This document shows, piece by piece, positions 5,641 to 28,042 of a DNA stretch of 54,709 bases; within the stretch, counting starts at the first letter, position 1; each line of letters begins with the position of its first letter. The notes beneath the pieces were generated by a model. It did no database searches. It was not told the DNA's origin and worked only from the letters and a program-made list of their open reading frames with translations. The translations under genes and the position numbers were made by a program. The stretch comes from a virus, in the IMG/VR virus record IMGVR_UViG_3300021962_008580, positions 1-54,709 of that record. One strand, 5' to 3'.

Positions 5641-6522
5641 TTATATTGACGAGATATTCTCGCTTTTTATATCTCTAATACATTGGTCTATTTTTTCTTT
5701 GACCATTTCAAATGATATTTCTTTTGTGCATTCGAAGTTCTTGTTTCTGGGACACCACATCCATCCCATAGTACTCAATTTTAAGCACGTGTCATCTATC
5801 GTATCATCATTTAAACAACCATGACATACACTTTTGTTTATTACACGATAGCACCCGGCGTTAAATTCATTGGACTCTTCTGTACACCCGGATATTACTA
5901 TCGCTTTCTTTTTCATAGAAAAAGCAATCCAAGACAACCCCGAACTTAAACCCATAAAGAAGCTACAATTTTTAATCTGCTCCATTCTGTATTCAATAGG
6001 ATAATTTCCAGTTTCATTTATAGCACCCGAAGGAATATGATTCCATTTTACTCCTCCTTTACCAAACACCTCATCTCTATCTATAGCAAGAACATCATAT
6101 CCCAATTTTTTTAGGTATCGCACAACCTTATCCCAACCTGAATTATTATTCCAATATTTCATTTGAGCGGTGGATTGTACACTTATACATACATATTTTT
6201 TCTTCTTATTGAATTTTATTGGATTATTTGCTTTTAATTTTGGAATAATTTCCACATAATCCAAATCTAATTGCTTACATGCAACCTTTTGAAGATTGAA
6301 TCCTGGTTTGAACAACATGTATAATTTATGATGTACATCAGACTGAACATCTTGAGTTTTGGGTATAAATTTTACATTTTCATTGTCTGTATCAAATAAG
6401 TTATGCCATTTTGTTTTGACATATACCGTTCCGCCGTGCTTTTTTTGATACACATCGGGATATGGAGAAAACGCGATGTTATCTCCAAGACTTTCTGTAA
6501 CAAATTCTATTAGTGTGACCAT
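5641..6522 (-). CDS. TibC-like protein O-heptosyltransferase (BAHT-type), short form
   Basis: This is a 293-residue GT-B type glycosyltransferase resembling the bacterial autotransporter heptosyltransferases (TibC, Aah), which transfer heptose from ADP-heptose to serines of adhesins. Visible signatures are SLGDNIAF at the N-terminus, VCISVQSTAQMKYWN at residues 111-125 with GWDKVVRYLKKLGYDVLAID after it, FFMGLSSGLSW near 190-198, and cysteines C233, C236, C257 and C265. Known family members bind iron through a four-Cys motif. A near-identical motif set occurs in the 10450-12993 protein. I chose the ATG at 6522, which shares one base with the upstream stop. A longer reading from 6567 adds a 15-residue Cys/Lys-rich leader that does not fit the family. 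Donor and acceptor cannot be proved from sequence. Confidence 0.8.
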   Translation of the reverse strand: MVTLIEFVTESLGDNIAFSPYPDVYQKKHGGTVYVKTKWHNLFDTDNENVKFIPKTQDVQSDVHHKLYMLFKPGFNLQKVACKQLDLDYVEIIPKLKANNPIKFNKKKKYVCISVQSTAQMKYWNNNSGWDKVVRYLKKLGYDVLAIDRDEVFGKGGVKWNHIPSGAINETGNYPIEYRMEQIKNCSFFMGLSSGLSWIAFSMKKKAIVISGCTEESNEFNAGCYRVINKSVCHGCLNDDTIDDTCLKLSTMGWMWCPRNKNFECTKEISFEMVKEKIDQCIRDIKSENISSI

Positions 6523-7253
6523 TATATAATTGAAACTCCTCTTTGTCTTACAACTTTGCTCGCACATTCGTTTGCAAACTTGATAGACTGAATAATATCT
6601 TTACTTCTGCTATATTCTATAACAAGACCAGCCATGAACGAATCTCCGGCTCCAGATACATCTATGACATCCTGTTGCTCTACAGGATATCTGACCCCGT
6701 GATAATAGCAACCATCTTCTCCGCTTGTCTTGATGATTTTTTCTTCAAGATCTGGAGTTATGCTTGCCTCGGACCTGCTATATTCGTGATTATTGATTTT
6801 GATAAAAGTGACATTCTTTGCCCAAGGACCAAGAATTTTCTTTGTGTCCAAGAAAACAGAATTGTGATTTTTTGAAATGGTTTCTATGTCTTCTTCTGTA
6901 AGAAACCCTTTATCATAATCAGAAACAATAATGTGTTCATAATCATAATTCATGGAATCTATGTTTATGCGTTTGATTTCTTCGGCAGAATCCAATCTAA
7001 AAAACATATGATTGGTCGCCTTATGAATATATCTGGTTTTGGTTATATTGTACCAGTTTGGATTGGTTACTATATCACAATCGTCAACCATTGTCTTGAT
7101 GTTGCGATATACATTCTTAGCCATACCGGGATTGTCGTTTTGATCTATGATCTTTAGAACTGGTACTGGCTTATCTGGGCACATTCTGTTTGCGGAGCAG
7201 TATGCATGTACGTCTCTGCAACTATCACCGATTACTAATATTCTTTTTTTCAT
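6522..7253 (-). CDS. PfkB-family sugar kinase, HldE/RfaE N-domain-like
   Basis: This is a 243-residue ribokinase-fold kinase. Its start, ILVIGDSCRDVHAYCSANRM followed by CPDKPVPVLK, follows the pattern of heptose-7-phosphate kinases (GDxxxDxY...P.APVPV). NPGMAKNV at 41-48 corresponds to the GGAANVA segment. VSDYDKGFL at 110-118 matches the SDYxKG motif. DVSGAGDSF at 198-206 is the anion hole with catalytic Asp204. In the known pathway the HldE kinase domain makes heptose-1,7-bisphosphate on the way to ADP-heptose, the donor used by TibC-like enzymes such as the next gene. It is shorter than the usual kinase domain (about 315 residues), and no cytidylyltransferase-type domain is attached. The ATG at 7253 overlaps the upstream TGA by one base, and a TTG one codon earlier is less likely. 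Another sugar substrate is possible. Confidence 0.8.
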   Translation of the reverse strand: MKKRILVIGDSCRDVHAYCSANRMCPDKPVPVLKIIDQNDNPGMAKNVYRNIKTMVDDCDIVTNPNWYNITKTRYIHKATNHMFFRLDSAEEIKRINIDSMNYDYEHIIVSDYDKGFLTEEDIETISKNHNSVFLDTKKILGPWAKNVTFIKINNHEYSRSEASITPDLEEKIIKTSGEDGCYYHGVRYPVEQQDVIDVSGAGDSFMAGLVIEYSRSKDIIQSIKFANECASKVVRQRGVSII

Positions 7254-8446
7254 CAAAATAGAGTTTTCTTTTCAACAATCATAGAAGGTCTGGAAGAAGC
7301 GATAGCTTTTCTATATGCTTCAAGCATCTCTTCACCGTTCTTTGGTACGTATATTGGGAAAGTGACCATCTTCTTGAATCCTTCTGTAAAGTCCTGTGAA
7401 TGTGTAGGACCAGAATAGAATGGACCGCCGTCGGCAACAACGGTCTTTAGAATAACTGGACACTTATATTCTCCGTGAGAAATACGTTCGATATAGTTGA
7501 TATGGTTGATGATAGCGTCCGCAGCCACCAACATAAAGTCGTGACGTTCAATATAAACGACTGGACGATAACCCTCAAACGACATACCGATAGCCAATCC
7601 AGTCATCAAGTTTTCGGCAACTGGAGTTTCTATCTTCTTTTCATCCGGTACAAATACGGTGGTACCCATAGCGTTTCCATAAACGACGTTGTAACCAATG
7701 AAAACTGAATTTTGTTGTCCGATCTCTGTCATAGCCTTGATGACAGCGTCCTTGTATGAAATCTTTTCTGTTGTGATCGGAGGCAGAACTTCTGGAGCCA
7801 GATGTGGGAAATATTCCGCATCTGTCTTTTGCTTCATCTTGGAGATATCAATTCGTTCGTTGATACGAGCGTGAGGATATGTGATCTCGTACTTGTATCT
7901 TCTGACACAGCTCGGGAACATTTCCTCAAGTGACTTACCCCAACGAACAGTCTTTGGAGTTTCAACAGAACGGTTGTTGTCTTCGATGATGAATGTGCAA
8001 GGAAGATCAAAACCACTTACATATCTGGCAGCTTCAAATAGATGGCCAGAATCTTCTGTTCCGTCACCAACAAAACACCACACTCTTTGCTTTGAACCCT
8101 TCTTCTTTAGAGCAAGAGCGATACCGGCAGAAATAGCGGGAGTACCGCCGATGATAGCTGATGTAAAGAAGTTGAGCTTTCTGTCAAAGATGAACATGCT
8201 TCGTCCGTTGAGAATACGATCCTTGACGGTTTCTCTTGGAATACCAGACAAGATGGCATGATAATGGTTTCTGTGATTGGAGATGACATAATCACCTTCA
8301 TTCATTTCATTGAAGATATCAATAAGTTGGTCCTCGTTGCCACCGGAAAGGTGAAAAAGGAATGGAAGCTTGCACTCTTTGTATAGAGTTACAATCTCAT
8401 TCTCAAAATTGATCAGGTCTTGTTTGGTCAGGTTTGTTTTTTTCAT
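7253..8446 (-). CDS. Thiamine-diphosphate enzyme, fused E1-alpha/beta or transketolase-like, no C-terminal domain
   Basis: This is a 397-residue ThDP-dependent enzyme. Residues 1-200 are an E1-alpha/transketolase PP domain with the ThDP motif GDG (127-129) ending at NN (157-158). Residues 225-397 are an E1-beta-like pyrimidine domain with a conserved Glu in ETPVAENLMTGLAIG (E278 is the likely cofactor-activating residue) and HSQDF at 349-353. The protein stops where the family's pyrimidine domain normally ends, so the transketolase C-terminal domain is missing. Such enzymes transfer two-carbon units or decarboxylate 2-oxo acids. The true substrate here is unknown. Its place before an HldE-like kinase makes a seven-carbon sugar precursor an attractive but unproven product. 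It lies one base after the dehydrogenase gene and overlaps the kinase gene by one base. Confidence 0.8.
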   Translation of the reverse strand: MKKTNLTKQDLINFENEIVTLYKECKLPFLFHLSGGNEDQLIDIFNEMNEGDYVISNHRNHYHAILSGIPRETVKDRILNGRSMFIFDRKLNFFTSAIIGGTPAISAGIALALKKKGSKQRVWCFVGDGTEDSGHLFEAARYVSGFDLPCTFIIEDNNRSVETPKTVRWGKSLEEMFPSCVRRYKYEITYPHARINERIDISKMKQKTDAEYFPHLAPEVLPPITTEKISYKDAVIKAMTEIGQQNSVFIGYNVVYGNAMGTTVFVPDEKKIETPVAENLMTGLAIGMSFEGYRPVVYIERHDFMLVAADAIINHINYIERISHGEYKCPVILKTVVADGGPFYSGPTHSQDFTEGFKKMVTFPIYVPKNGEEMLEAYRKAIASSRPSMIVEKKTLF

Positions 8447-8447
8447 A

Positions 8448-9461
8448 TTAAATGTCTATCATTATTCTTCCACTTGAACCAGACTTCAACATTGAAACGG
8501 CAAGATTGATGTCTGACAAAGAATATCTATGAGTTACAAGGTGTTGAAGATTAATTTTATTGTTTTTATAAAGATTAATATATCTTGGGATATCAACGTC
8601 AGGATCAAATCCACCGGCTTGGGTTGTTCTGATGGACTGTCCGTTTGTGGAGAATAGTTTGCCTGGGTTGTTTATAGCCAAAGAAGAGCCAGGCTTTGGT
8701 TGTGCTACAAGAATGCATCTACCTTGTTCCGACATAGTCTCCAACAACTGTGAAAGAAGCTGTAGGATGCCTGTGGTATCTATGATACAATCAAATTTCA
8801 TCTTCTTGACAGTTTCTATATCTTCTTCCGAATGAAGGAAGGTTCCGCCATTCTTTTCGACCATAGACTTTTTATCTTTGTTGATATCCATGCCCCAGAC
8901 CAAAGCGTGAGAAAGATGGGAGGCGTAGATACAATTTAGACCAACTCCGCCGCAACCCAATACAAGAACTCTTTCACCAAACTTGATATTAGCATCTTTG
9001 TTTACTACGCTGAACCCAGTGGATATACCACAACCAAGAAGAGCAGCGAAATCGTTGCTGATATCTTGATCAATCTTTGTTATTCTGTTTTCTGATACAA
9101 CCGAGTATTCTGACAATGTGGTTATTTTACCACCAGACATACTTCTGCCATTCCAATTATATTGTGGGAAGTTAGCTTCAATACCAGATGCTTTTCTCCA
9201 ATGCAATACTACCTTGTCACCAACTTTGACTTTTGATACTCCTGGTCCAGTCTTTTCTACCAAACCACATCCTTCGTGACCGACAAGATGGGGCATAAAC
9301 TTCTCATTCCCCTTGAGCCCAGCAATTTCTTGTAGTTGTGCTCCACACAATCCACTTACAAGAACCTTTACAAGCACTTGCCCATATTCAAGATTGACTG
9401 GAAGATTGACTTCATCCACAACCAACGGTTCATTTTTCTTTACAAGTATTGCTGCTTTCAT
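8448..9461 (-). CDS. Zinc-type medium-chain dehydrogenase/reductase
   Basis: This is a 337-residue MDR-family alcohol or polyol dehydrogenase. Catalytic zinc ligands are predicted at C39 (SGLCGAQ), H62/E63 (GHEGCG) and C144 (LLGCGISTG). The NAD(P)-binding Rossmann turn is LGCGGVGLN at 168-176, followed by an acidic DIN near 197. The lobe that normally carries four structural-zinc cysteines (about residues 88-105) has none here, so a structural zinc is probably absent. The family oxidises alcohols or reduces carbonyls. In this cassette it may act on a sugar or on the aldehyde/ketone made by the neighbouring ThDP enzyme, which is inference from context. Its start overlaps the upstream methyltransferase stop as ATGA, and its stop is one base before the next ATG. 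Confidence 0.85.
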   Translation of the reverse strand: MKAAILVKKNEPLVVDEVNLPVNLEYGQVLVKVLVSGLCGAQLQEIAGLKGNEKFMPHLVGHEGCGLVEKTGPGVSKVKVGDKVVLHWRKASGIEANFPQYNWNGRSMSGGKITTLSEYSVVSENRITKIDQDISNDFAALLGCGISTGFSVVNKDANIKFGERVLVLGCGGVGLNCIYASHLSHALVWGMDINKDKKSMVEKNGGTFLHSEEDIETVKKMKFDCIIDTTGILQLLSQLLETMSEQGRCILVAQPKPGSSLAINNPGKLFSTNGQSIRTTQAGGFDPDVDIPRYINLYKNNKINLQHLVTHRYSLSDINLAVSMLKSGSSGRIMIDI

Positions 9462-10453
9462 CCTTTTTTCTTTCCGTATATAACGCCCTTGAGGTCACAC
9501 AAAGTATACCAAGATTCAAACGCTAAGTTCAAGCATTTGACATCAAATCCGGCTGCTATCAATTTATCAACTATGAATTGGGTTCTGTGATTTTCGTTAT
9601 GATGAAATTCGATCAAAACTTGGTCTATGTTCTTCAAATCCTCGACGGATAAGCTATTAAATATGTCATATTCATATCCTTCTATATCCAACTTCCAAAG
9701 ATTGATTTTTTCACACTTTGTTTTTTTAATCAAGCTTTTCAAAGATATGCATTCCACGGTCACCGGCCTAGCGTCGCCAACCATATTTTCGGTATCATAT
9801 TTTTTTTGATTATCTATCTGAAATGAATTTAGTGTGGTTTTATCCGTGAAATAAAATTGCTTCTGTCCATCTTGAGTGTCTAAAGCCACATTATATCTTT
9901 CAACTCTGGTGTCGAATGTTCTGTCTAAAATATAATATGATGGAGATGGCTCTAAACAAACAACTTTGCTTGCTTTTCTCTTTAAGCAATAGTCGGCAAA
10001 AGTTCCACAACTTGCTCCAACGTCAAATACAACATCGCCTTCTTGAACAATATTGTTCAAAAACGAATTATTGTAGAAATCGAGATATTGGATGTAAAAA
10101 CAGTCAGATACGTTTAGATCGCTTGAATCATCCGAGTAAAAATATTTTGGAGTAGGTCTATCAACAATTTTTATTTCAGAACTAAAAAGTTTTACTCCAT
10201 TTTCATACAAGGAAAAAATAAAACCTGTGAAGTCTGTGTTAAGTAATTTAACTCTGCTTGTTGGAGAAACAAAATAATTTACTCCGGCTGTAATTTCCAC
10301 ATCTTTCCAATAAAAGCATGTTAAATTGGAAGTTCTTTCTTTTAAAACAATGGTTACTTTTTTAAAAGATTTGGTTAAAACAAAGTTTAATTTGTTTTCA
10401 TCTTTTTCAAAGCTCCAAGATAAATTTATTGCTGTTTCGGTGGATTCACTCAT
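9458..10453 (-). CDS. FkbM-family SAM-dependent methyltransferase with N-terminal beta domain
   Basis: This is a 331-residue protein. Residues 1-100 are a strand-rich region resembling the N-terminal region of the neighbouring 847-residue protein. Residues about 115-331 are an FkbM-type Rossmann methyltransferase with the SAM loop VVFDVGASCGTFADYC near 141-156, a second motif CLEPSPSYY near 167, and KLDIEGYEYDIF in the second half. FkbM enzymes methylate hydroxyls on sugars and polyketides, so O-methylation of a glycan or glycan precursor is the likely role. Both ends overlap neighbouring genes by four bases (ATGA), which supports coordinated synthesis with the cassette. The exact methylated position cannot be deduced. 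Confidence 0.85.
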   Translation of the reverse strand: MSESTETAINLSWSFEKDENKLNFVLTKSFKKVTIVLKERTSNLTCFYWKDVEITAGVNYFVSPTSRVKLLNTDFTGFIFSLYENGVKLFSSEIKIVDRPTPKYFYSDDSSDLNVSDCFYIQYLDFYNNSFLNNIVQEGDVVFDVGASCGTFADYCLKRKASKVVCLEPSPSYYILDRTFDTRVERYNVALDTQDGQKQFYFTDKTTLNSFQIDNQKKYDTENMVGDARPVTVECISLKSLIKKTKCEKINLWKLDIEGYEYDIFNSLSVEDLKNIDQVLIEFHHNENHRTQFIVDKLIAAGFDVKCLNLAFESWYTLCDLKGVIYGKKKG

Positions 10454-12993
10454 TTGATGTTCCTAATTTCTATAGATGATGTAATATACTGACTCTTTGA
10501 TTGTATTAAGTCAAGAATTAATGATGCAATTTGTTGAGAATCCATAAGATCTGAATAGTTTAGTCTATTTTCCGTCATTTTTGTTTTCATGGCACCTACA
10601 TAAATATCCACCACCTTGATTTTTGAATTCTTCTGATTTATTGAAAGTGAAGAACCAAAACCAGAAAGTCCGAACTTTGATGCACAATATACAGATTCAT
10701 TATAGTTTGGTTGTTTTCCGGCCAACGAGTTTATATTGATTATCCAACCAGATTGATTGGTAAGAGTCAAATGTTTATAAAGATATTTGGAAAGAAGCAT
10801 AGGAGCTACAAGATTTACGTTTATGATTTCTTGTATTCTTTGATCTGAAACATCCATAATACCATCTCCACAATATATTCCAGCATTATTTATCAAACAG
10901 TTGATGTTGTTTTTGACAATGTATTCTTCCATTTTTTGAACACTGTTGATGTCAGAAAAATTACAAAATTCATATTTGTTGTTTTGGTTGTTGCGATTTG
11001 CTTGACCATAAAACTGAACGTTTCTGTTGGAACATTCTTTTTCAAGAGATTGGCCCAATCCACCCGATATTCCCGTCACCAATATTTTTGGAAAATTTTG
11101 TTTGATTGAAATGTTTGTATCTTCCACCAATCCATCTCGAACGTCTATATAAACCAAAACTTCGGTGTATTTATTCAAAAAGTCTGGGTTAAATAAATCC
11201 CACTTGATGTCTGTTCTAGCCGTAAAATCATAAACTTTGTAATTCTTGAATCGTCTCAGATAATTGTCTCTGAAGTTTGCGAATTTTTCTTTAAATCCAT
11301 TCGGACCAAGATGCCATTCACCAGCTATCTTTTTTACGTTCTTGGTTAACCAATCAAAATTCTCATCGGTGAAAATATCATACTCTCCTCCTTCACAATC
11401 GATCTTTAGAAAATCGATTTTATCTATGTTATTTTCTTTAATTAAGTCGGAGAACGTGATGGTGTTAAAATCTTCGGTTATTTTGAACGTCAATCCATTT
11501 TTAATAGATTGGCGTTTGTAAGATATTCCCACGTTCAATAACGTGTGTGGAGCACCTTTGAGTTTATTCTTGATGGTTTCTTGTCTTGAAGCTCCTGGTT
11601 CCAACGTCAATATTTTCTTAGGTTTTCTTTTTGAAGCAGCATAAGAGAACCAACCAAGAAATCCTCCTATATCAACGACTATATCGTCTTTTTCAACCTT
11701 GAAGAATTTTTCATATACGGTACCTTCTTTTTTAAAGAACTCTTCGTATATGATATATTTTTCTTTGGCACTTATGTCTTTTTCTTCTTCGACATATTCA
11801 AGTTCTTTTCTATAATCCAAATCAATGACATCGTTTATTTTTTTGATGACCATCTCCGGAGTTATTTCCTTGGTACATTCAAAATTTTTGTTTCTCGGGC
11901 AAAAATCCCATTTTGATTTGTCAAATGGTATTTCGTTGGCACAACCGTGGCAAACGTTTTTATTCATTCCAACTCTAAATGGACTATAAAATTCAGTCCA
12001 GACATCGCTGATACCAGAAATCATTATTACAGGAGTACCAACCGACCAAGACAACCAAGATAAACCAGAAGTCAATCCTATGAAGAATTCAGCCCCTGCG
12101 ACTTGGTTTATTCTTTCTTCTATAGGAAAATCTCCGGTTTTATCAATTGCTCCTTCTGGTATAGAGTTTTGATAGTTTTCCGTTCCAAAAACTTTGTACT
12201 TGTCTATACACCAAACCTCATAGCCAAGACCGTTGAGATATTTGATTACTTCATCCCATCCGCCCTTTCTGTTCCAGTATTTGTATTGAGCGGTGCTTTG
12301 TGTAGCGATACATACATACTTTTTTCCATCGTTGTATGTTTTATTAAATTTTAATTTTGGCTTTATTTCCATTTCTCCAAAACCAAGAATGCTTGGAGCG
12401 ATGGAAGATAAAGACAACTGTTTCGGATCGTGGAAAATTTTTCCTTGCCAATCTTCGTAATAATATCCCAATCTATAAGATGCATAGTAAGAAAGATCAG
12501 AGTCGGTTGATGATAAAAACTTTATATTTGGGTAATTTTCTTTGAATATTTTATTCCAAGTGGGATCAAATACCACACAACTTAATTCACAGTTGTGTTT
12601 TTTCTGAAAGGCGTCAATCGCTCCAATGTATGCAAGCAAATCTCCCATAGAGTTTGTGTCGCATGTAATCTTTACTCTCTTTCCTTTTAGATTGAATATT
12701 GTCTCCTTTACTATTTCGTTTCCGCATTTGACAACAATTTTCCAATTGAAAAAATATCTCATGCTTGGAGAAGACCACATTCCATTCTTTATTTTTGTGG
12801 AATATATGTTTTTTCCATTCGAGTTATCAATAAAATCTATGGAATATTCTTTTTCCACATTTCCTACTATCTCGACTTTGGCTCCTTCTATGAAAGAAAT
12901 TTTAATTTCATTTTTATTTTCATCCACCGATTTATCATATGGACGCCAAACCGGCTTGGTTTCGTTGTATATTCTTGTTAAAGTTTGTTTCAT
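10450..12993 (-). CDS. Three-domain fusion: TibC-like heptosyltransferase, FkbM methyltransferase, SDR
   Basis: This is an 847-residue protein. Residues 1-100 form a beta-rich N-terminal region. Residues about 103-395 are a TibC-like GT with VCIATQSTAQYKYWN (227-241), FFIGLTSGLSW (303-313) and cysteines C348, C351, C365 and C373. Residues about 410-620 are an FkbM methyltransferase with DIVVDIGGFLGWFS (437-450) and KIDCEGGEYDIF (530-541). Residues about 633-847 are a short-chain dehydrogenase with TGISGGLG (640-647), NNAG (702-705), Ser756 and YCASK (Y769, K773), so the SDR catalytic residues are intact. The domain order suggests transfer, methylation and oxidation or reduction of one glycan on a single scaffold. 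The start overlaps the upstream GT4 stop and the end overlaps the next ATG, each by four bases. The FkbM boundaries are approximate. Confidence 0.85.
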   Translation of the reverse strand: MKQTLTRIYNETKPVWRPYDKSVDENKNEIKISFIEGAKVEIVGNVEKEYSIDFIDNSNGKNIYSTKIKNGMWSSPSMRYFFNWKIVVKCGNEIVKETIFNLKGKRVKITCDTNSMGDLLAYIGAIDAFQKKHNCELSCVVFDPTWNKIFKENYPNIKFLSSTDSDLSYYASYRLGYYYEDWQGKIFHDPKQLSLSSIAPSILGFGEMEIKPKLKFNKTYNDGKKYVCIATQSTAQYKYWNRKGGWDEVIKYLNGLGYEVWCIDKYKVFGTENYQNSIPEGAIDKTGDFPIEERINQVAGAEFFIGLTSGLSWLSWSVGTPVIMISGISDVWTEFYSPFRVGMNKNVCHGCANEIPFDKSKWDFCPRNKNFECTKEITPEMVIKKINDVIDLDYRKELEYVEEEKDISAKEKYIIYEEFFKKEGTVYEKFFKVEKDDIVVDIGGFLGWFSYAASKRKPKKILTLEPGASRQETIKNKLKGAPHTLLNVGISYKRQSIKNGLTFKITEDFNTITFSDLIKENNIDKIDFLKIDCEGGEYDIFTDENFDWLTKNVKKIAGEWHLGPNGFKEKFANFRDNYLRRFKNYKVYDFTARTDIKWDLFNPDFLNKYTEVLVYIDVRDGLVEDTNISIKQNFPKILVTGISGGLGQSLEKECSNRNVQFYGQANRNNQNNKYEFCNFSDINSVQKMEEYIVKNNINCLINNAGIYCGDGIMDVSDQRIQEIINVNLVAPMLLSKYLYKHLTLTNQSGWIININSLAGKQPNYNESVYCASKFGLSGFGSSLSINQKNSKIKVVDIYVGAMKTKMTENRLNYSDLMDSQQIASLILDLIQSKSQYITSSIEIRNIK

Positions 12994-15119: not shown

Positions 15120-15151
15120 ACTAAAGAATATATAAAATTGTTAAAATTGTG

Positions 15152-15793: not shown

Positions 15794-15821
15794 AATAACC
15801 TTTGTTGGTTATATATATGAA

Positions 15822-18716: not shown

Positions 18717-18721
18717 ATTAT

Positions 18722-18731
18722 TATAAATATA
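18722..18731 (-). promoter_or_regulatory. Candidate late-promoter element TATATTTATA
   Basis: The decamer ends 5 bases before the preferred ATG (18716) of the nucleotidyltransferase fusion and 21 bases past the fibre stop. If it is a promoter, the transcript would be nearly leaderless. Confidence 0.45.
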
Positions 18732-18751
18732 TATGACAGTACATAATCGTG

Positions 18752-21700
18752 TCATTTTTTACTCAAAGTTTCAAGTTGATTTTCAAGTTTCTCGATACGA
18801 TCTTGCTGAGCTTTGATTGCTTCAATAAGTAGAGGAACAAGCTTCTCGTAACGTACTGTCATGTACTTTTCATCGATTGGTGCTGGTGCAACAATTTCTG
18901 GAAGAATTGCGTTGACTTCTTGGGCAGATACACCGACCTCTCGTTTCTTTTTATATCCCAAGGAGACCGCGATGTCATTTGCTTCAAAATAAAACCCAGA
19001 CAGCGCTTTAACTTTCTCAATTGGATTTTCAATCGGACCAATCTTTGTCTTCAAACGTTCGTCGGAATAATAAGCGGTTATGTTGTCTGTGGCACGAATT
19101 TCGCCGGTGGTTCCGGATGGGGAAGTCCCAACGCCCAGCGAATTTGTTATACGTGATGATCCACTTACAACAAATGAACCTGTAATTATTGTGTCTCCAT
19201 TAACATCCAATAATGAATTTGGATCTAGTTTTCCCACACCTATTCTACCAGAAGTTTCAAACAAAACTGAACTGTTTATTACATTTGTGGCTGAAGAAAA
19301 CTTGGCTATATATCCAGAGGTTCCAGAGTTTGCAACGGATGTTCCAGAAGACCCGCTGGTTCCAGAAGAACCGTTTGTGCCCGCTCCTCCATTTACTCCA
19401 CTCGTCCCACTTGTTCCGGATGCTCCACTTGACCCGCTTGTGCCGGAAGATCCAGACGTACCGTTTGTTCCAGAAGATCCGCTACTTCCGGAAGTTCCAC
19501 TTGTTCCACTTAGACCAGAAGTTCCACTGGTTCCAGATGCTCCGCTTGATCCGGATGTACCGGACGAACCACTAGTACCGGAAGATCCGTTTGTTCCACT
19601 TGTGCCAGAGGTTCCACTGCTACCACTTGTTCCACTCGCTCCAGAAGAACCAGACGTTCCAGATGTACCACTGCTTCCGCTTGTGCCAGAAGTACCGCTT
19701 GATCCGCTTAATCCAGACGTACCGCTTGTTCCAGACGCTCCACTCGTGCCAGATGTGCCAGAGCTTCCAGATGTACCGCTTGTACCGGATGTTCCACTAG
19801 AACCACTTGTACCAGAAGAACCGGAAGTACCGGACGATCCGCTTGTTCCACTTACTCCAGATGTACCACTTGTACCAGATGCGCCGCTTGTTCCGGAGGT
19901 ACCACTGCTTCCACTGGTTCCACTGGTTCCGTTTGTGCCTGAGGTACCATTTGTTCCAGAAGTTCCATTGGTACCAGATGTACCATTTGTGCCGGACGTT
20001 CCATTGGTGCCCGAAGTTCCGTTTGTTCCACTGGACCCACTAGTTCCAGAAGACCCGCTTGTACCATTTGTTCCACTTGATCCGCTGGTGCCAGACGAGC
20101 CACTAGTACCATTAGTACCGCTTGTTCCGTTGGTGCCACTCGAACCATTTGTTCCAGAAGATCCGCTTGTTCCTGATGTTCCACTAGAACCGCTCGTTCC
20201 ATTTGTGCCGCTGGTACCGTTGGTTCCACTGGTTCCATTTGTTCCAGATGACCCGTTGGTGCCACTGGTGCCGTTGGTTCCTGACGTTCCATTGGTTCCA
20301 CTGGTTCCATTTGTTCCAGATGATCCGTTTGTACCGCTTGTGCCATTTGTTCCCGAAGTTCCGTTTGCTCCACTTGATCCAGACGTTCCTGAAGAACCGC
20401 TGGTTCCGTTGGTACCAGAAGACCCGCTTGTTCCAGAGGATCCGCTTGTACCACTTGTTCCGTTTGTTCCAGATGTTCCGCTGGTACCGGAGTTTCCAGA
20501 AGAGCCAGATGTACCACTGGTTCCAGAATTTCCAGAGGTACCCGATGTTCCATTTGTTCCCGAAGATCCAGATGTGCCACTTGACCCGTTAGACCCACTT
20601 GTTCCACTCGATCCGCTAGAACCATTGGTACCAGACGTTCCACTCGTACCACTATTGCCGCTTGTTCCCGATGTACCGCTTGAACCACTAGTTCCCGATG
20701 CTCCAGATGACCCGCTTGTGCCGCTTGTTCCAGAAGTTCCCGACGATCCGCTTGTACCGTTCGTACCAGAAGTTCCATTTGTTCCCGAAGTTCCATTTGT
20801 ACCGCTTGTTCCATTTGTCCCAGAAGTTCCATTTGTTCCAGATGTTCCACTGGTGCCGGAGTTTCCAGAAGAACCAGACGTTCCGCTAGAACCGCTGCTT
20901 CCCGAAGTTCCGCTGGTACCTCTGGTTCCAGATGTGCCGCTTGTACCAGATGTTCCACTTATTCCACTGGTGCCGCTCGTTCCACCGCCCAAAGAATTTA
21001 ATGCGTAGCTGGCCGTAATTGCATAAGACGCCGTACCAAATAAAGATCCAGTGATACCGGCTGATACTCCAAGAGAACCAGTTATCACAGCACTTCCGCT
21101 GACATCAAATACAGCGCTAGGATTTGTTTTTCTTATACCAATTCTACCTCCACCGGTTAAAACCATCATATCTTCGTAATCGGTTTCTCCCCCTCCACGA
21201 TTTACGTAGAATTTCAATTGACCACCCCAATCACCAGGATTCAATCCAGTACTGGTCGTATCATATAAACCAGAAATTCCGGCATATCTCCAATTTGGTG
21301 TAGCGGGAATTGCTACAGACAATGGATCATAACCACTGAATGTAATTTTTCCTCCTGTTCCATTGGCTGTGTTATAATTGTGAAGATTCAACATGTCAGC
21401 AACGGAATTGCTTGAAGTATACAAAGTTTCCATTACTCCAGGGCGTGTAATTGTGTCTCCAATCGTTATATATTTTCCATCATCAAATATGGCACTTCCA
21501 GCTATATTATTTGAACCAGAATTATAATATCCCACAGCCAAACTATTTTCTGCGACGTTGTTTGTAGCAATATTGTATCTGGAGCTAGATTCCATGTATA
21601 CATGTTTCGTTCCACCTCTAAACACATTATTTGATACTACGTTGGCAGATCCGGTATATCCTCCAATATAAATTGATTTTCCTGTTCCGGCATTAAACAA

Positions 21701-24700
21701 TGTGTTACTTGTTATCGTACTTTCATACATGTTCAAACCATTAATCAACGTTGCGGTTGTATCTGCTATAATAAGATTATTGCTAATATAACAAGATTCA
21801 ACGTTTTTTAGAACTATTGAATCCCCGCTGTTTCTAGCATCAATATGGCTGTTTAATATAGAAACAAGAGCAACACGCCCAGCAATATTTCTTCCAGCCC
21901 AGTCGGTTCCAGCAATTCCGGTAAATGCGGCGTTGCCATCGACATAGATCCCACACGTCACAGGAACAAACAATAACTGAGAAAAGGTCATTCCTTCCGT
22001 GTTCATTCCCGCCGCGGTATAATCTACGGTATTTATTTTTATACCCGTGTTCCAATGATTGAATTGACTTTGGTTTACAGAAGAATTTACGCAAAGTCTT
22101 TTAAATTCAAGTCCAGTACCAACCCAACCACTTCCAGTCGGGTTTCCATGAAAGAAACATCTATCTATTCTTGTATTCCAAGCCGATTCTACGGTTACAG
22201 CTTTTAACCAATAATTTGAATTATCAAATGATAAAACTTGAACACCCGATAAATCAACGGAAACATTTTCGTGTTGAGATGTACTAGTTGTTCCATATGT
22301 TATGTCAATTGCAGATCCCGAAATTGCCGTGGCCGCGTGAAATCCAAGATCTCTTATAGCCACTTGATAAACGGAATCGGACGTAGTACCATTATCCATA
22401 TTGAATTTTATGGCCGTGTCATTTCCCGTCTGTTTTATTATAGATACATTGGCACTATTTCCAAACAAAGCTATATCACAACTTGGATTACTTGTTAATT
22501 GTAATGCGCCCGTAATTACATATACTCCATCAGGAAAGTAAACCGATCCTGTTTTTACAGCCTGAGAAGCAGAAATTGCGGTCTGAATAGCCGTGGTGTC
22601 ATTTGTAACACCATTCCCCGTTGCCCCATAGTCTTTAACATTAAAATAGGAAGTATCTGCTGATTTTAATGCATATGAAGCTGTTCCAAATAAAGATCCT
22701 GTTATTCCGTTTAAAACATCCAAAGATCCAGATATTTTCACACTTCCCGTCATCATAAAACTGCCACTGATGTCAAGTGTGGCTTGTGGAGATGTTTTAT
22801 TTATTCCCACATATGTGCCAGCATCAAATATTATAGATTCTGTAGAAGTTTGATTTGCCGCATATTTTACAACATAGTTTAATGATCCTGATATAGCCAA
22901 GGAGGTGCCGCTTGTGCCAGAAGTTCCGCTTGCACCATTTGTTCCAGATGATCCATTTGTTCCACTTGTTCCATTAGTACCACTCGAACCATTTGTTCCC
23001 GAGGATCCACTTGTTCCAGATGAACCAGATGTACCATTAGCTCCACTACTTCCAGATGTACCAGAGCTCCCAGATGTACCGCTTGTGCCAGAAGAACCAC
23101 TTTGTCCAGAAGTTCCACTTGTTCCTGAAGAACCAGACGTACCGCTTGTACCAGATGTACCACTTTGTCCAGATGTACCGCTTGTTCCCGATCCTCCATT
23201 TACTCCACTTGATCCACTGGTTCCAGAAGAACCGCTTGTTCCAGATGTTCCACTCGAACCAGAAGAACCACTTGTGCCAGAACTTCCCGATAGTCCGCTG
23301 GTTCCAGAAGACCCGCTTGTTCCAGATGTTCCGCTAGACCCAGAAGTTCCATTGGTACCGCTGGTTCCACTCGTACCAGATGCACCACTCGTTCCACTTG
23401 AACCAGACGTTCCATTTACTCCGCTTGTACCGCTTGTACCGCTTAAACCGCTTGTTCCAGATGAACCGGATGTTCCACTTGTTCCAGAAGTGCCAGACAA
23501 TCCATCCGTTCCAGATGTGCCATTTGTACCGCTTGACCCAGATGTTCCGTTTGTTCCAGATGTTCCGTTTGTTCCCGATGTGCCATTTGTTCCAGAAGTT
23601 CCGTTAGTTCCTGATGTACCGTTTGTACCACTTGAGCCAGATGTTCCAGAAGATCCATTTGTTCCACTCGTTCCAGAAGTGCCGCTACTTCCAGAGGTTC
23701 CACTGAAGCCACTGGTTCCAGAAGATCCAGAAGTTCCACTAGAACCATTTGTTCCCGATGTTCCATCAGTTCCACTGCTACCAGAAGTGCCGTTAGAACC
23801 ATTAGATCCAGAAGTACCACTTGTTCCGCTAGAACCATTGGTACCAGACGTTCCACTCGTACCACTATTTCCGCTTGTTCCTGATGTTCCAGATGAACCG
23901 CTTGCGCCGCTTGTTCCACTTGTGCCAGAAGTTCCCGACGATCCGCTTGTACCGTTCGTACCAGAAGTTCCATTCGTTCCGCTGGTACCATTAGTTCCTG
24001 ACGTGCCATTTGTTCCTGAAGTACCATTTGTGCCACTGGTACCATTGGTTCCGGATGTTCCGTTTGTCCCAGATGTTCCATTCGTTCCGCTGGTACCGTT
24101 GGTTCCAGATGTTCCATTAGATCCGTCAATCCCAGAAGTTCCTGATGTTCCACTCGAACCATTACTACCACTTATTCCGCTTGTACCGTTTGTTCCCGAA
24201 GTTCCAGATGTTCCACTAGACCCGTTAATACCAGATGTACCACTTGTACCCGAAGTTCCGTTTGTACCAGAAGAACCAGAAGTTCCACTCGAACCATTTG
24301 TTCCACTGGCGCCGCTTGTTCCAGAAGTTCCGTCTACTCCTGATGTACCACTGGTTCCAGACGATCCAGAAGTACCAGAACTGCCACTTGTACCCGACGA
24401 ACCATTTGTTCCAGAACTACCACTGGTTCCTGAGGATCCGCTACTTCCATTTGTACCCGACGTTCCAGAAGTTCCGCTGGTTCCAGATGTAGACGTATAT
24501 GCCGCCGAGGCAACTCCTATATTTTTTACGTTTACTATAATTGAAGGAGCCGCGGGAGCATTATATGGATCCGGTGGATTTGTTCTGGCCGGAATTGCTG
24601 TTATTTGAGTATACTGTGTTGATGCCGCCATCATCAACTCAATATAATCACCTTGTAACGCATCTACGATGATGCTTACAAACGGAAGCTGCAATACAGA

Positions 24701-27700
24701 GTTCGATACCAGTTTAAAATATGAGTCGCTTCTTGGAATATCTGTTCCGTTCTTTCTTACCCACCAGTGAACAGTTGAGTCCGTTCCTTGAGTTTTTTCT
24801 ACTTGTGGAGAAAAAGAAAATTCGTATATTCCAGAATGCCCAAAAGTTATTTTTGAATTATCCACCACCGATATTCCATTTTCTATTTCAACGGCGTTAT
24901 AAGTAATGGACATAGTAACGTCTGCGCCAGGCACAACCTGATCTTGGTCGCTACTATATTGAGCATAGTAGTTTACCACTTCTACACCAGATGTACCGCT
25001 GGTTCCCGAAGTACCATTTATACCACTGGTTCCGCTAGTTCCGGAACTTCCATTTGTACCACTGGTTCCGTTTGTGCCTGATGCCCCCGACACTCCAGAT
25101 GAACCAGACGTTCCGCTACTTCCGCTTGTACCACTACTACCACTTGTGCCAGAACTTCCATTTGTACCACTGGTTCCGTTTGTACCAGAGATTCCACTAG
25201 ATCCAGATGAACCATTGGTTCCTGAAGTCCCACTTGTACCGCTTGTTCCACTTTCACCGCTTGTGCCAGAAGTTCCACTATTGCCTGAGCTTCCTGAAGT
25301 TCCGTTTGTTCCCGATGAACCAGAAGACCCACTGGTTCCAGAAGAGCCGTTTGTTCCACTACTGCCATTTGACCCAGAACTTCCACTTGTACCGTTTGCT
25401 CCGGACGTTCCAGATGAGCCTGAACTTCCATCTATTCCGCTTGTGCCTGAACTACCACTGGTGCCATCAATTCCACTGGTTCCTGATGATCCGTTTGTAC
25501 CACTCGAACCATTGGTACCAGAAGTTCCACTTGTTCCGGATGAGCCGGAGCTTCCACCAGTTCCGCTTGTGCCCGAACTGCCACTAGTACCTCCAGTACC
25601 ACTGGTTCCGCTGGTTCCGCTGGTTCCTGATGAACCGTTTGTGCCACTTGTGCCATTGGTACCGCTTGTTCCATTTGTCCCAGAACTTCCACTACTTCCA
25701 GACGATCCACTGGTACCACTACTTCCAGATGATCCGCTAGTTCCACTGGTACCAGATGAACCACTAGTTCCATGTGATCCAGAAGTTCCTGATGAACCAT
25801 TTGTTCCTGATGAACCACTAGTTCCAGATGTTCCTCTGGTGCCAGAAGTTCCCGAAGAACCGCTGGTTCCAGAGGTTCCTCCACCACCTCCGCCACTTGT
25901 TCCGGAGGTTCCAGAGGTTCCAGAAGATCCACCCGCTCCTCCGCCCCCTCCTGTTTGAATACTCAGTCCATCAACATCGACAAAAAATTTCTTGTTTAAT
26001 GGAAGATATGTGTGGTTGTATTTAAAATTGTATGAGTTTTCTCCGTAAGCCAAATTTCCATTTGAGTCATATAGTTCAACATCTATTTCAAATAACTCAT
26101 TTTTTACCGTGTTTGGAATAGGAACATTTGCTGAAAAAACGTCTGGAGAATATCCAACAGAATGATATGGTTTTATTGAAACTTGAGAAAGATTCCATCC
26201 ACCGGCAACAGGAACAATCTTTATTGTTCCAAATTGTGTATTTGGTACAAAGAAAGAGCTGGTATAAAGTTCATTAGCACCATAATTGTAAGAGTTATCA
26301 ATATAACCTATTTGTGTTATTTCTTCTCCGCTCAAGAAATAAACATACAATTGAGAAGAATCGGTATTTGCGGATTGCCCTCTCACCCTCATAGAAAACT
26401 GATACAAACTATTTTCTATTAGTTTTATCGGGTTACTATTATGTACACTACCAGCTAGCAAGTTTTCTTGAGAACTTCCATATGCTGAAAGTAATGAAGG
26501 AACATCGTATGAGGCCGTAGGATATGGAAGTTTACTGTTGAACGCCTCGGTATCTCCATACCAATACGAATTGGATAATAACGTTGGAGAAACATATGCG
26601 GAAGTTCTGGACGGTTCAGCTACATTATCCTTGAATATAACATAATCGGTTTTAGAAGTGTTGGAAGAGTGTGATATAGAAACCCCATCTATCAACACAT
26701 CGTTTGATTGATTGAAAGTAAATGATCCATTTTTTAACCAATACTGGTCGGTATACGCCTGAGAATAAAATTCGCCTGGTTTTCCATGAAACGCGTTATC
26801 AAAATCTGTGGTCTTGATGCACTCTTGAGGTTCTATTCTTCCTTCCACCAGTAATGTTTTACTTTGGGGAGTGTTTAAGCTTCTTCCATATATCTTGTAT
26901 GAAGAAACTTGACCGCAAAGAGCACGTAAATTTCTTACTTCTATATGAGCGTAAGCTTTTACCGCCGCGACACTGGCTGAAACATAAGATCTTGGTAAAG
27001 TAAACGGTATATCTTTGTATATTATCTCATAATTTCCAGAACTGATACTCAGAACATAAAAATTTTTCTTGAAATAACTATTTTGTTTATTTGGATCATT
27101 TTCCGAAACATAATTTCGAATGTTTGTGAGATCATTTTTTGCGTATTGAGAATTTTGATTTGTTCTACCAATCAAATCCGAAACCGTTGAAAATGGAATG
27201 GATATAAGTAATGCATTCTCACTAACTATACGTTTAATTTTGGCTATGAAATCTGTATCAAGAGGTCCGTTGTATTCTATTTCATTGTTTCCTTGATCCG
27301 AATACAAAAATTTTGTAACATTTATATCTTTTACTCGAATATTTTCTCCTTCCATCGCAGAAGAAAATGCGGTTCCACCTTGTCTGTAAATTTGATATAT
27401 TACTTCATCTCCTTGAGGATCGTAATCTCCGTTGCTGTTCTTTTTTGGAGTTACCGCGTTGGAATAAAAAGAACCTGAAGCAACAGAAAACGGTTGTGAT
27501 GGATATTCTGGAACTTTATGAAGAACGGGAGTAACGGTCAGTGTTGGGTAATCAAAAAATCTTACTTGAGATTTTGTTGAAAACTTGGTGTCAATTGCGA
27601 CGTTTCTTCTCCAGATAATAGTACCAGTTGGAAGAGGGGAGCTTGCTGGAGCTTGTAATAATGGTCCGTTCTGATTGTCGGAGACCTTGTATGGAACGTT

Positions 27701-28042
27701 TTGATAATATTCAAAACTTCCTGTATATGTTCCGAGATCAACTCCCTGTGCCGAAACCTCTATATACCCAAAACCAGGTTCAACATTTTCTGGAATTTTT
27801 GTATAATACGTGGTTCCAAGAGTTGTTGACTCTCCATATTTGGCATCCTTAGCTTTGGATGTCTGAGTAAAAAGTTCTACATTTTTTGATGTATAAACCT
27901 TTACCGAAATGCTTGAATTTGGCAGTATTCTTTTGGAAGGATTTACTACAAAAGAATTTTTGCCCGCACCAAAAACACCATCGAAATCTGTTATAAAAAA
28001 GAAGTCGTTGGATTGTGGATCTGTGTCTATAATATCTGCCAT
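18752..28042 (-). CDS. Giant tail fibre/spike with Gly-X-Y repeats, beta-helix and S74 chaperone
   Basis: This is a 3,096-residue host-contact protein. Residues 1-697 are probably baseplate-attaching and strand-rich. Three Gly-X-Y blocks follow at 698-1018, 1187-1714 and 2352-2902, almost entirely Gly-(Thr/Ser)-(Ser/Asn) and without proline. Between the first two is a C1q/TNF-like beta-sandwich candidate (about 1025-1165). Between the last two is a pectate-lyase-like beta-helix starting near 1795 with NVKDYGATGNGVTND, the type found in tailspikes that bind or cleave polysaccharide. The C-terminal 104 residues are a Peptidase_S74 intramolecular chaperone. SDERLK at 2993-2998 carries the Ser and Lys of the self-cleavage motif, and a trimerising coiled coil ends the chain. 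Trimeric assembly is expected from the family. The start codon sits in an inverted repeat. Confidence 0.93.
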   Translation of the reverse strand: MADIIDTDPQSNDFFFITDFDGVFGAGKNSFVVNPSKRILPNSSISVKVYTSKNVELFTQTSKAKDAKYGESTTLGTTYYTKIPENVEPGFGYIEVSAQGVDLGTYTGSFEYYQNVPYKVSDNQNGPLLQAPASSPLPTGTIIWRRNVAIDTKFSTKSQVRFFDYPTLTVTPVLHKVPEYPSQPFSVASGSFYSNAVTPKKNSNGDYDPQGDEVIYQIYRQGGTAFSSAMEGENIRVKDINVTKFLYSDQGNNEIEYNGPLDTDFIAKIKRIVSENALLISIPFSTVSDLIGRTNQNSQYAKNDLTNIRNYVSENDPNKQNSYFKKNFYVLSISSGNYEIIYKDIPFTLPRSYVSASVAAVKAYAHIEVRNLRALCGQVSSYKIYGRSLNTPQSKTLLVEGRIEPQECIKTTDFDNAFHGKPGEFYSQAYTDQYWLKNGSFTFNQSNDVLIDGVSISHSSNTSKTDYVIFKDNVAEPSRTSAYVSPTLLSNSYWYGDTEAFNSKLPYPTASYDVPSLLSAYGSSQENLLAGSVHNSNPIKLIENSLYQFSMRVRGQSANTDSSQLYVYFLSGEEITQIGYIDNSYNYGANELYTSSFFVPNTQFGTIKIVPVAGGWNLSQVSIKPYHSVGYSPDVFSANVPIPNTVKNELFEIDVELYDSNGNLAYGENSYNFKYNHTYLPLNKKFFVDVDGLSIQTGGGGGAGGSSGTSGTSGTSGGGGGGTSGTSGSSGTSGTRGTSGTSGSSGTNGSSGTSGSHGTSGSSGTSGTSGSSGSSGTSGSSGSSGSSGTNGTSGTNGTSGTNGSSGTSGTSGTSGTGGTSGSSGTSGTGGSSGSSGTSGTSGTNGSSGTNGSSGTSGIDGTSGSSGTSGIDGSSGSSGTSGANGTSGSSGSNGSSGTNGSSGTSGSSGSSGTNGTSGSSGNSGTSGTSGESGTSGTSGTSGTNGSSGSSGISGTNGTSGTNGSSGTSGSSGTSGSSGTSGSSGVSGASGTNGTSGTNGSSGTSGTSGINGTSGTSGTSGVEVVNYYAQYSSDQDQVVPGADVTMSITYNAVEIENGISVVDNSKITFGHSGIYEFSFSPQVEKTQGTDSTVHWWVRKNGTDIPRSDSYFKLVSNSVLQLPFVSIIVDALQGDYIELMMAASTQYTQITAIPARTNPPDPYNAPAAPSIIVNVKNIGVASAAYTSTSGTSGTSGTSGTNGSSGSSGTSGSSGTNGSSGTSGSSGTSGSSGTSGTSGVDGTSGTSGASGTNGSSGTSGSSGTNGTSGTSGTSGINGSSGTSGTSGTNGTSGISGSNGSSGTSGTSGIDGSNGTSGTNGTSGTNGTSGTNGTSGTNGTSGTNGTSGTNGTSGTNGTSGTNGTSGTNGTSGSSGTSGTSGTSGASGSSGTSGTSGNSGTSGTSGTNGSSGTSGTSGSNGSNGTSGSSGTDGTSGTNGSSGTSGSSGTSGFSGTSGSSGTSGTSGTNGSSGTSGSSGTNGTSGTNGTSGTNGTSGTNGTSGTNGTSGSSGTNGTSGTDGLSGTSGTSGTSGSSGTSGLSGTSGTSGVNGTSGSSGTSGASGTSGTSGTNGTSGSSGTSGTSGSSGTSGLSGSSGTSGSSGSSGTSGTSGSSGTSGSSGVNGGSGTSGTSGQSGTSGTSGTSGSSGTSGTSGQSGSSGTSGTSGSSGTSGSSGANGTSGSSGTSGSSGTNGSSGTNGTSGTNGSSGTNGASGTSGTSGTSLAISGSLNYVVKYAANQTSTESIIFDAGTYVGINKTSPQATLDISGSFMMTGSVKISGSLDVLNGITGSLFGTASYALKSADTSYFNVKDYGATGNGVTNDTTAIQTAISASQAVKTGSVYFPDGVYVITGALQLTSNPSCDIALFGNSANVSIIKQTGNDTAIKFNMDNGTTSDSVYQVAIRDLGFHAATAISGSAIDITYGTTSTSQHENVSVDLSGVQVLSFDNSNYWLKAVTVESAWNTRIDRCFFHGNPTGSGWVGTGLEFKRLCVNSSVNQSQFNHWNTGIKINTVDYTAAGMNTEGMTFSQLLFVPVTCGIYVDGNAAFTGIAGTDWAGRNIAGRVALVSILNSHIDARNSGDSIVLKNVESCYISNNLIIADTTATLINGLNMYESTITSNTLFNAGTGKSIYIGGYTGSANVVSNNVFRGGTKHVYMESSSRYNIATNNVAENSLAVGYYNSGSNNIAGSAIFDDGKYITIGDTITRPGVMETLYTSSNSVADMLNLHNYNTANGTGGKITFSGYDPLSVAIPATPNWRYAGISGLYDTTSTGLNPGDWGGQLKFYVNRGGGETDYEDMMVLTGGGRIGIRKTNPSAVFDVSGSAVITGSLGVSAGITGSLFGTASYAITASYALNSLGGGTSGTSGISGTSGTSGTSGTRGTSGTSGSSGSSGTSGSSGNSGTSGTSGTNGTSGTNGTSGTNGTSGTNGTSGTNGTSGSSGTSGTSGTSGSSGASGTSGSSGTSGTSGNSGTSGTSGTNGSSGSSGTSGSNGSSGTSGSSGTNGTSGTSGNSGTSGTSGSSGNSGTSGTSGTNGTSGTSGSSGTSGSSGTNGTSGSSGTSGSSGANGTSGTNGTSGTNGSSGTNGTSGTNGTSGTNGTSGTNGSSGTNGTSGTNGTSGTNGTSGSSGTSGTSGSSGTNGSSGTNGTSGTNGTSGSSGTSGSSGTNGTSGSSGTSGSSGTNGTSGTNGTSGTNGTSGTNGTSGTNGTSGTNGTSGTSGSSGTSGTSGASGTSGTSGVSGTSGSSGTSGSSGTSGSSGTSGTSGTSGSSGTSGTSGASGTSGTSGLSGSSGTSGTSGSSGTSGTSGSSGASGTSGSSGTSGTSGTNGSSGTSGSSGTSGSSGASGTSGTSGLSGTSGTSGSSGSSGTNGTSGSSGTSGSSGASGTSGTSGVNGGAGTNGSSGTSGSSGTSVANSGTSGYIAKFSSATNVINSSVLFETSGRIGVGKLDPNSLLDVNGDTIITGSFVVSGSSRITNSLGVGTSPSGTTGEIRATDNITAYYSDERLKTKIGPIENPIEKVKALSGFYFEANDIAVSLGYKKKREVGVSAQEVNAILPEIVAPAPIDEKYMTVRYEKLVPLLIEAIKAQQDRIEKLENQLETLSKK
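19337..20989 (-). repeat. Collagen-like Gly-X-Y repeat block C in tail fibre
   Basis: This block encodes fibre residues about 2352-2902, between the beta-helix and the C-terminal S74 chaperone. Composition is as in blocks A and B. All four Gly codons and several Thr and Ser codons are mixed, so the DNA repeat is less exact than the protein repeat. Confidence 0.9.
22901..24484 (-). repeat. Collagen-like Gly-X-Y repeat block B in tail fibre
   Basis: This block encodes fibre residues about 1187-1714, the same Gly-(Thr/Ser)-(Ser/Asn) triplets without proline. It contains a long uniform run of the hexapeptide GTNGTS (at least nine in tandem). It separates the C1q-like candidate domain from the beta-helix domain. 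Confidence 0.9.
24988..25951 (-). repeat. Collagen-like Gly-X-Y repeat block A in tail fibre
   Basis: This block encodes fibre residues about 698-1018. Almost every third residue is Gly, mostly in Gly-Thr-Ser, Gly-Ser-Ser and Gly-Thr-Asn triplets, with rare His, Arg, Asp, Glu, Ile and Val and no proline. Two Gly-rich hinges (GGGGGAGG and GGGGGG) mark its N-terminal edge. Confidence 0.9.

Follow-up and report, generated by a model that had tools for sequence, protein, structure and literature searches.

Does a phage that encodes glycosyltransferases resembling bacterial protein O-heptosyltransferases, close to the gene for a giant Ser/Thr-rich fibre, use them to glycosylate that fibre? This question is raised by IMG/VR record IMGVR_UViG_3300021962_008580, which we analysed over positions 1-54,709 (54,709 nt, hereafter the window). 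Its gene content marks the window as a fragment, 54.7 kb long, of the genome of a T4-like phage: among the structural and replication genes of T4 type are those for portal, terminase, baseplate wedge, SbcC-like nuclease and primase, and nearly all genes lie on the minus strand. An initial annotation had proposed that the phage modifies its own fibre, and our analysis, which draws on the family and fold of the enzymes, on co-occurrence and on the pairing of enzyme and repeat in bacteria, supports this proposal: the phage probably O-glycosylates its own giant fibre by means of TibC-family enzymes that it encodes and, probably, an ADP-heptose-type sugar, with the glycan itself being what we infer. 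All features named in that annotation were recovered by an open reading frame (ORF) check at their positions on the minus strand, and those at the centre of the argument are as follows.

18752-28042, minus strand: giant fibre, 3,096 residues, with an N-terminal part (residues 1-700), three Gly-X-Y blocks and a C-terminal Peptidase_S74 domain (ORF, Pfam)
24980-25879, minus strand: Gly-X-Y block 1, residues 722-1021, GTS/GSS/GTN, proposed acceptor (triplet count)
22901-24484, minus strand: Gly-X-Y block 2, residues 1187-1714, proposed acceptor (triplet count)
19337-20983, minus strand: Gly-X-Y block 3, residues 2354-2902, proposed acceptor (triplet count)
18890-19066, minus strand: Peptidase_S74 (chaperone of endosialidase) domain of the fibre (Pfam, E 3.7e-9)
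11806-12993, minus strand: TibC/BAHT domain 1 of an 847-residue fusion, with N-terminal beta-barrel, catalytic Asp and iron-finger Cys (TIGR04414, fold)
5641-6567, minus strand: TibC/BAHT protein 2, 308 residues, without the N-terminal beta-barrel, catalytic and iron-finger residues complete (TIGR04414, fold)

These features belong to a co-directional minus-strand series that runs from 28,042 to 5,641 (fibre, 977-residue ORF, 213-residue ORF, cassette) with intergenic gaps of at most 32 bp, so that the fibre does shortly precede the cassette, as had been suggested, with two ORFs between them (15822-18755, 977 residues, and 15152-15793, 213 residues). Promoter and terminator scans of the window gave hits at chance level and were uninformative on co-transcription; a search for tRNA genes in the window found none, and Rfam gave no match.

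The two glycosyltransferases belong to the TibC/Aah family

We scored both proteins against TIGR04414, the model for autotransporter O-heptosyltransferases (BAHT), which has a curated cut-off of 200 bits; transfer of ADP-heptose to protein Ser and a dodecameric assembly count among the hallmarks of this family. The 847-residue ORF (10450-12993) scored 318.8 bits over residues 24-388, the remainder of the protein consisting of an FkbM domain plus a short-chain dehydrogenase, while the 308-residue ORF (5641-6567) scored 202.8 bits in the protein scan and 196.6 bits when the genome hit was scored. In the protein scan both thus exceed the cut-off, in line with the TibC/Aah likeness first noticed from a QSTAQxKYWN signature and a four-Cys cluster, both of which are present in the two proteins (as QSTAQMKYW and QSTAQYKYW). 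Across 369 genomes of one bacterial class the same cut-off was passed by only 2, with many weak matches at ~17-35 bits.

TibC is also the top PDB match by sequence for each protein (6e-62 and 2e-46). AlphaFold models of the two (mean pLDDT 90 and 82), the structure prediction called for by the initial annotation, matched TibC in a fold comparison with E values of 1e-39 and 1e-20 and template-modelling (TM) scores of 0.82-0.86 and 0.62-0.76, and WaaC and WaaF came behind TibC in the same comparison, at ~1e-11 to 1e-5, with only a weak Pfam GT9 match. Since TibC is clearly closer than WaaC/WaaF in both sequence and fold, an identity as GT9-type lipopolysaccharide (LPS) heptosyltransferases, which would have spoken against a protein acceptor, is ruled out by family score and fold. 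In TibC, Yao et al. (PMC4358343) identified Asp110 as the base, Thr226, Lys230, Arg286 and Trp305 as donor contacts, and Cys339/342/358/370 as an iron finger. Our alignment finds equivalents of all of these residues in both window proteins, for which the conserved Cys predict an iron finger, and places both within the TibC/Aah (BAHT) family with catalytic and iron-finger residues complete. Among 103 phage homologues, which were gathered with search patterns that favoured Cys358 and Cys370, Lys230, Trp305 and the four Cys are invariant and Asp110 is kept in 102.

The fibre carries a proline-free Gly-X-Y repeat

The repeat described in the initial annotation as some 1,400 residues long measures 1,356 residues, made up of 452 Gly-X-Y triplets in uninterrupted runs that form three blocks. 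GTS (216), GSS (109) and GTN (72) are the main triplets; 90% of triplets have Thr or Ser at position X, and position Y is taken mostly by Ser (79%) or Asn (19%). The tracts hold 472 Ser, 292 Thr and zero Pro. Pfam matches the fibre to Collagen (PF01391, 1.5e-171, mostly composition) besides the C-terminal Peptidase_S74 domain, and without proline a collagen triple helix is not assured. The strand-loop-strand repeat TIGR04415 was not detected in the fibre, using a search in which positive-control bacterial neighbours do match; the fibre therefore lacks the known type of BAHT acceptor and some other acceptor has to be involved, which is why we class the window system as a variant of the BAHT family that would act on another acceptor. 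Between the Gly-X-Y blocks, at about residues 1790-2300, lies a stretch beginning VKDYGATGNGVTNDTTAIQ that has the look of a tailspike-type beta-helix and gave no Pfam match at 0.01.

TibC-family genes and GTS tracts are linked in viral contigs

At least 573 IMG/VR stretches encode a relative, and the open-access literature that we searched held nothing relevant on BAHT enzymes in phages or on GTSGTSG phage repeats. For the co-occurrence survey that had been suggested as a check, we selected contigs solely by a DNA pattern for GTS/GSS tracts (with thresholds of ~50 of these triplets and a length of 20 kb). TIGR04414 was encoded by 20 of these 37 contigs (19 above the cut-off), and by 10 of the 11 that are longer than 100 kb. 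As controls, we used contigs picked by a random 14-mer (0/45; Fisher 3e-9) and contigs with Gly-Pro collagen-like tracts (0/34; Fisher 8e-8), the P values treating contigs as independent, which related contigs are not. In the reverse direction, GTS tracts were present in 29 of 44 TibC contigs or records and in 0/45 random ones. The survey is thus strongly positive, and its Gly-Pro control rules out a generic association with collagen-like fibres.

The linkage extends to gene position. On GTS contigs longer than 60 kb, a TibC gene lies within 5 kb of the GTS ORF in 10 of 15, where ~2-4 would be expected (P = 0.001 to 2e-6, depending on assumption), and in about eleven loci the gap between glycosyltransferase and GTS fibre genes is below 200 bp (L047, L048, L068, L069, L073, L084, L085, L425, L429, L432 and L433). 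In the cultured Microcystis phage Mel-JY01, the genes for a GTS fibre and a small structural protein precede one for a GT4-TibC fusion, after which comes another GTS ORF, and in the 735-kb megaphage LR756501 a GTS ORF adjoins a GT4 gene and a GT4-TibC gene.

Such a pattern could also arise by shared descent or habitat within one large group of T4-like phages, with no relation of enzyme to substrate: many of the loci do come from T4-like relatives with similar TerL, and on a TibC tree the adjacency labels are clustered. On the same tree, however, adjacency recurs on separate branches (parsimony puts the number of changes at about six, and the branches with good support require only two of them), and it is found in the megaphage, in Mel-JY01 and in bacteria whose GTS proteins are otherwise unrelated. 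We consider this explanation very unlikely; an artefact of lineage is weakened by the separate branches and the bacterial loci, not fully excluded.

The same pairing occurs in bacteria

The strongest answer to the objection of kinship comes from outside phages. Genes of this TibC subgroup are found in Methylobacter, Methylomicrobium and other genomes at 20-180 bp from those of secreted or lipoprotein-like proteins with GTS tracts, small proteins that otherwise share nothing visible with the phage fibres.

L443 4917-5795 and L447 7211-7921 (Methylomicrobium, a (GTS)17 protein with its TibC gene at 5833-7095): (GTS)n/(GSS)n secreted or lipoprotein-like proteins, methanotroph/gammaproteobacterial, beside TibC-family genes
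L448 4527-4916 and 7270-7896, L493 3058-3807 and L494 3185-3925: the same pairing, likewise methanotroph/gammaproteobacterial

Across 201 genomes of the methanotroph order, TIGR04414 was found in 12, the GTS pattern in 8 and both in 5, so that the pattern is present in 5/12 TIGR04414 genomes against 3/189 others (P 1.6e-5). Four genomes of this order carry classical BAHTs (~655 bits); the GTS pattern is absent from all four, and both of the proteins neighbouring classical BAHTs that we tested have TIGR04415 autotransporter repeats. Two BAHT subgroups thus sort with two acceptor types. Because the pairing of this enzyme family with the GTS repeat recurs across numerous viral contigs as well as unrelated bacteria, the repeat is probably the sugar acceptor.

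These loci bear on a further explanation, that the cassette remodels the host surface (LPS or capsule) and that its fibre neighbour is coincidental or linked only through receptor blocking. Glycosyltransferase clusters near the tail-fibre genes of pelagimyophages have been read as O-antigen modification (PMC7029224), and cyanophage versions of the sugar genes sit apart from structural genes. Against this, the enzymes belong to a family of protein heptosyltransferases and are not WaaC/WaaF-like, their genes tightly adjoin those of GTS fibres in numerous phages and those of secreted GTS proteins in bacteria, and BAHT genes are missing from the Gly-Pro-fibre contigs, all of which makes host-surface remodelling unlikely.

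As a separate observation, two contigs filed with bacterial metagenome-assembled genomes, L446 (Rickettsiaceae) and L450, are phage-like (GTS fibre; tail-sheath-like protein) and carry phage-type TibC genes; they are probable binning errors.

The cassette and the identity of the sugar

The other members of the cassette are sugar-modifying enzymes and a tandem glycosyltransferase.

12990-15119, minus strand: tandem GT4-GT4 glycosyltransferase, proposed glycan extension (domain match)
11119-11799, minus strand: FkbM methyltransferase domain of the 847-residue fusion (domain match)
10450-11118, minus strand: short-chain dehydrogenase domain of the 847-residue fusion (domain match)
9458-10453, minus strand: FkbM-family methyltransferase (domain match)
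8448-9461, minus strand: zinc alcohol dehydrogenase-like enzyme, also in cyanophage sugar cassettes (domain match)
7253-8446, minus strand: thiamine pyrophosphate (TPP)-dependent E1/transketolase-like enzyme, GDG...NN motif intact (domain match, motif)
6522-7256, minus strand: RfaE-domain-I (heptose 7-phosphate kinase)-like PfkB kinase, 244 residues (profile match)

The initial annotation's HldE-like kinase holds up in part. The protein at 6522-7256 matches RfaE domain I (1e-29) and a solved D-beta-D-heptose 7-phosphate kinase (1.2e-9), but at 244 residues it is short for a 315-position model and, with 103.7 of 345 bits, falls far under the equivalog cut-off; it is related to HldE/RfaE domain I and is not assignable as a heptose 7-phosphate kinase. 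An RfaE-I-like kinase recurs next to GT4-TibC in ten other contigs, and a GT4 gene or fusion goes with TibC in most related loci. The E1/transketolase-like protein has relatives with 60-62% identity in the cyanophages S-SM2 and P-TIM68, in which the same set of alcohol dehydrogenase, E1 and kinase genes stands beside annotated phosphoheptose isomerase, nucleotidyltransferase and epimerase genes. The recurrence of the kinase and the cyanophage context favour heptose or a heptose derivative as the sugar, and family membership suggests methylation by FkbM enzymes and glycan extension by GT4.

Alternatively, the enzymes could glycosylate the GTS fibre with a non-heptose ADP- or NDP-sugar made or modified by the TPP enzyme, the dehydrogenases and the kinase. 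Sugar-modifying enzymes outside the heptose route, the variability of Arg286 among phage relatives and the short, low-scoring kinase all fit this possibility; on the other side, both window enzymes keep Arg286 and the other TibC donor contacts, RfaE-like kinases recur beside GT4-TibC, and the related cyanophage cassettes include an annotated phosphoheptose isomerase. A non-heptose sugar is therefore possible, if somewhat doubtful.

Several further observations touch on the cassette and its surroundings. The second GT4 domain of 12990-15119 weakly matches SdgA, an O-glycosyltransferase of Ser-Asp repeat adhesins (1e-8, far below cut-off). At its N-terminus the 977-residue protein (15822-18755) is NMN-adenylyltransferase-like; inspection by eye suggests a middle part resembling a nucleotidyltransferase and a KLDG motif resembling that of a ligase. 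Because of this N-terminus, and because relatives keep the ORF near TerL both with and without a sugar cassette, we do not claim it as the missing heptose adenylyltransferase. In Synechococcus phage Sf-FS3 (L454, 97904-107185), several prolyl-4-hydroxylase-like genes lie amid genes for an RfaE-like kinase, a nucleotidyltransferase and a phosphoheptose isomerase, in a cluster that adjoins neck and terminase genes and may be another virion-modification cassette.

Weighing the evidence for a proposed fibre glycosylation system

A number of findings weigh against the proposal that the phage heptosylates its own fibre. Two genes separate the fibre from the first glycosyltransferase in the window. 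Genes for a phosphoheptose isomerase, a phosphatase and an adenylyltransferase are not recognisable in the window cassette, so for the full heptose route the phage would depend on its host or on genes that lie beyond this fragment. The adenine-reading Arg286 is conserved in 56 of the 103 phage homologues, an alignment-dependent count that implies that donors may vary. The N-terminal beta-barrel, seen in protein 1 by model and full-length match, is absent from protein 2, whose ORF has no room for it; since deletions in this region of TibC abolished activity, protein 2 may not function alone. In at least six other contigs, a TibC gene of full length is followed by a close relative of protein 2 (59-65% identity), making this a conserved gene pair, and a putative TibC heteromer of proteins 1 and 2 is a reasonable guess. 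The partner is absent from 17 of 37 GTS contigs and 15 of 44 TibC contigs, many of them fragments; as most viral records are fragments, such absence means little. LR756504 (636 kb) has TibC and no GTS pattern. Finally, among close TerL relatives TibC is found in 20 of 26 and GTS tracts in only 6, a set in which the co-occurrence test is uninformative because the contigs are short.

Taken with the evidence above, we favour the following scheme for self-glycosylation of the fibre. The TibC-family enzymes, one with a beta-barrel and one a barrel-less paralogue, would recognise tracts of the Gly-Thr-Ser type and attach to the hydroxyls of Ser, and possibly of Thr, a sugar for which ADP-activated heptose or a derivative is the likeliest candidate. 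The tandem GT4 would then lengthen the glycan; synthesis or decoration of the sugar would fall to the FkbM methyltransferases, dehydrogenases, TPP enzyme and kinase. The acceptor role of the tract, the modified residue, the heptose, the order of steps and the benefit to the phage, for which stiffening of the repeat, shielding from proteases and mimicry had been put forward, are what we infer in this scheme. A broader idea, which we regard as evenly balanced, is that a BAHT subgroup reads (Gly-Thr/Ser-Ser/Asn)n as an acceptor code that is portable and general, yielding dense O-heptosylation of these tracts both in phage fibres and in secreted bacterial proteins unrelated to them, and a proline-free fibre stiffened by glycans.

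Implications and comparison with known systems

Protein O-heptosylation has so far been known in a few bacterial adhesins and virion glycosylation in a few mycobacteriophages. If the proposed system is real, large environmental phages of a widespread class use BAHT enzymes to glycosylate giant repeat fibres, an anonymous low-complexity repeat gains biochemical meaning as a glycan attachment track, and a simple sequence rule predicts glycosylated proteins. It would also change how phage glycosyltransferases near fibre genes are read, which are usually taken for LPS or DNA modification. Should the portable code hold, hundreds of uncultured phages would bear heavily heptosylated virions.

Gly-X-Y surface fibres are found in bacterial BclA and mimivirus collagen and are glycosylated in some cases. 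Compared with these and with collagen-like phage fibres, the GTS tract of the window is proline-free, and Gly-Pro phage fibre contigs lack BAHT genes (0/34). Mycobacteriophages Che8, Corndog and Myrna encode glycosyltransferases that modify their own virion proteins (Freeman et al. 2023, cited in PMC12363180); the modified proteins are those of capsid and tail tube, not repeat fibres, and the passages of PMC12363180 that deal with them make no mention of BAHTs. The cassettes of cyanophages S-SM2 and P-TIM68 have the alcohol dehydrogenase, E1/transketolase-like and RfaE-I-like kinase genes in the same order as the window, together with the phosphoheptose isomerase, nucleotidyltransferase and epimerase genes, and lie away from structural genes; a TibC relative was not found in them. 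Parallels also exist to TibC-TibA and Aah-AIDA-I, O-heptosylated self-associating autotransporter systems that have family, fold, active site and iron finger in common with the window enzymes and in which, as in the phage, the enzyme gene stands beside that of a repetitive Ser-rich surface protein. Unlike in these systems, the phage acceptor would be a Gly-X-Y GTS tract, not a strand-loop-strand beta-helix, and unlike classical BAHTs the phage enzymes are fused to GT4, FkbM or short-chain dehydrogenase domains, have GT4 partners and include one barrel-less paralogue. They are BAHT-family members for which we propose a new type of acceptor, in phages and in bacteria.

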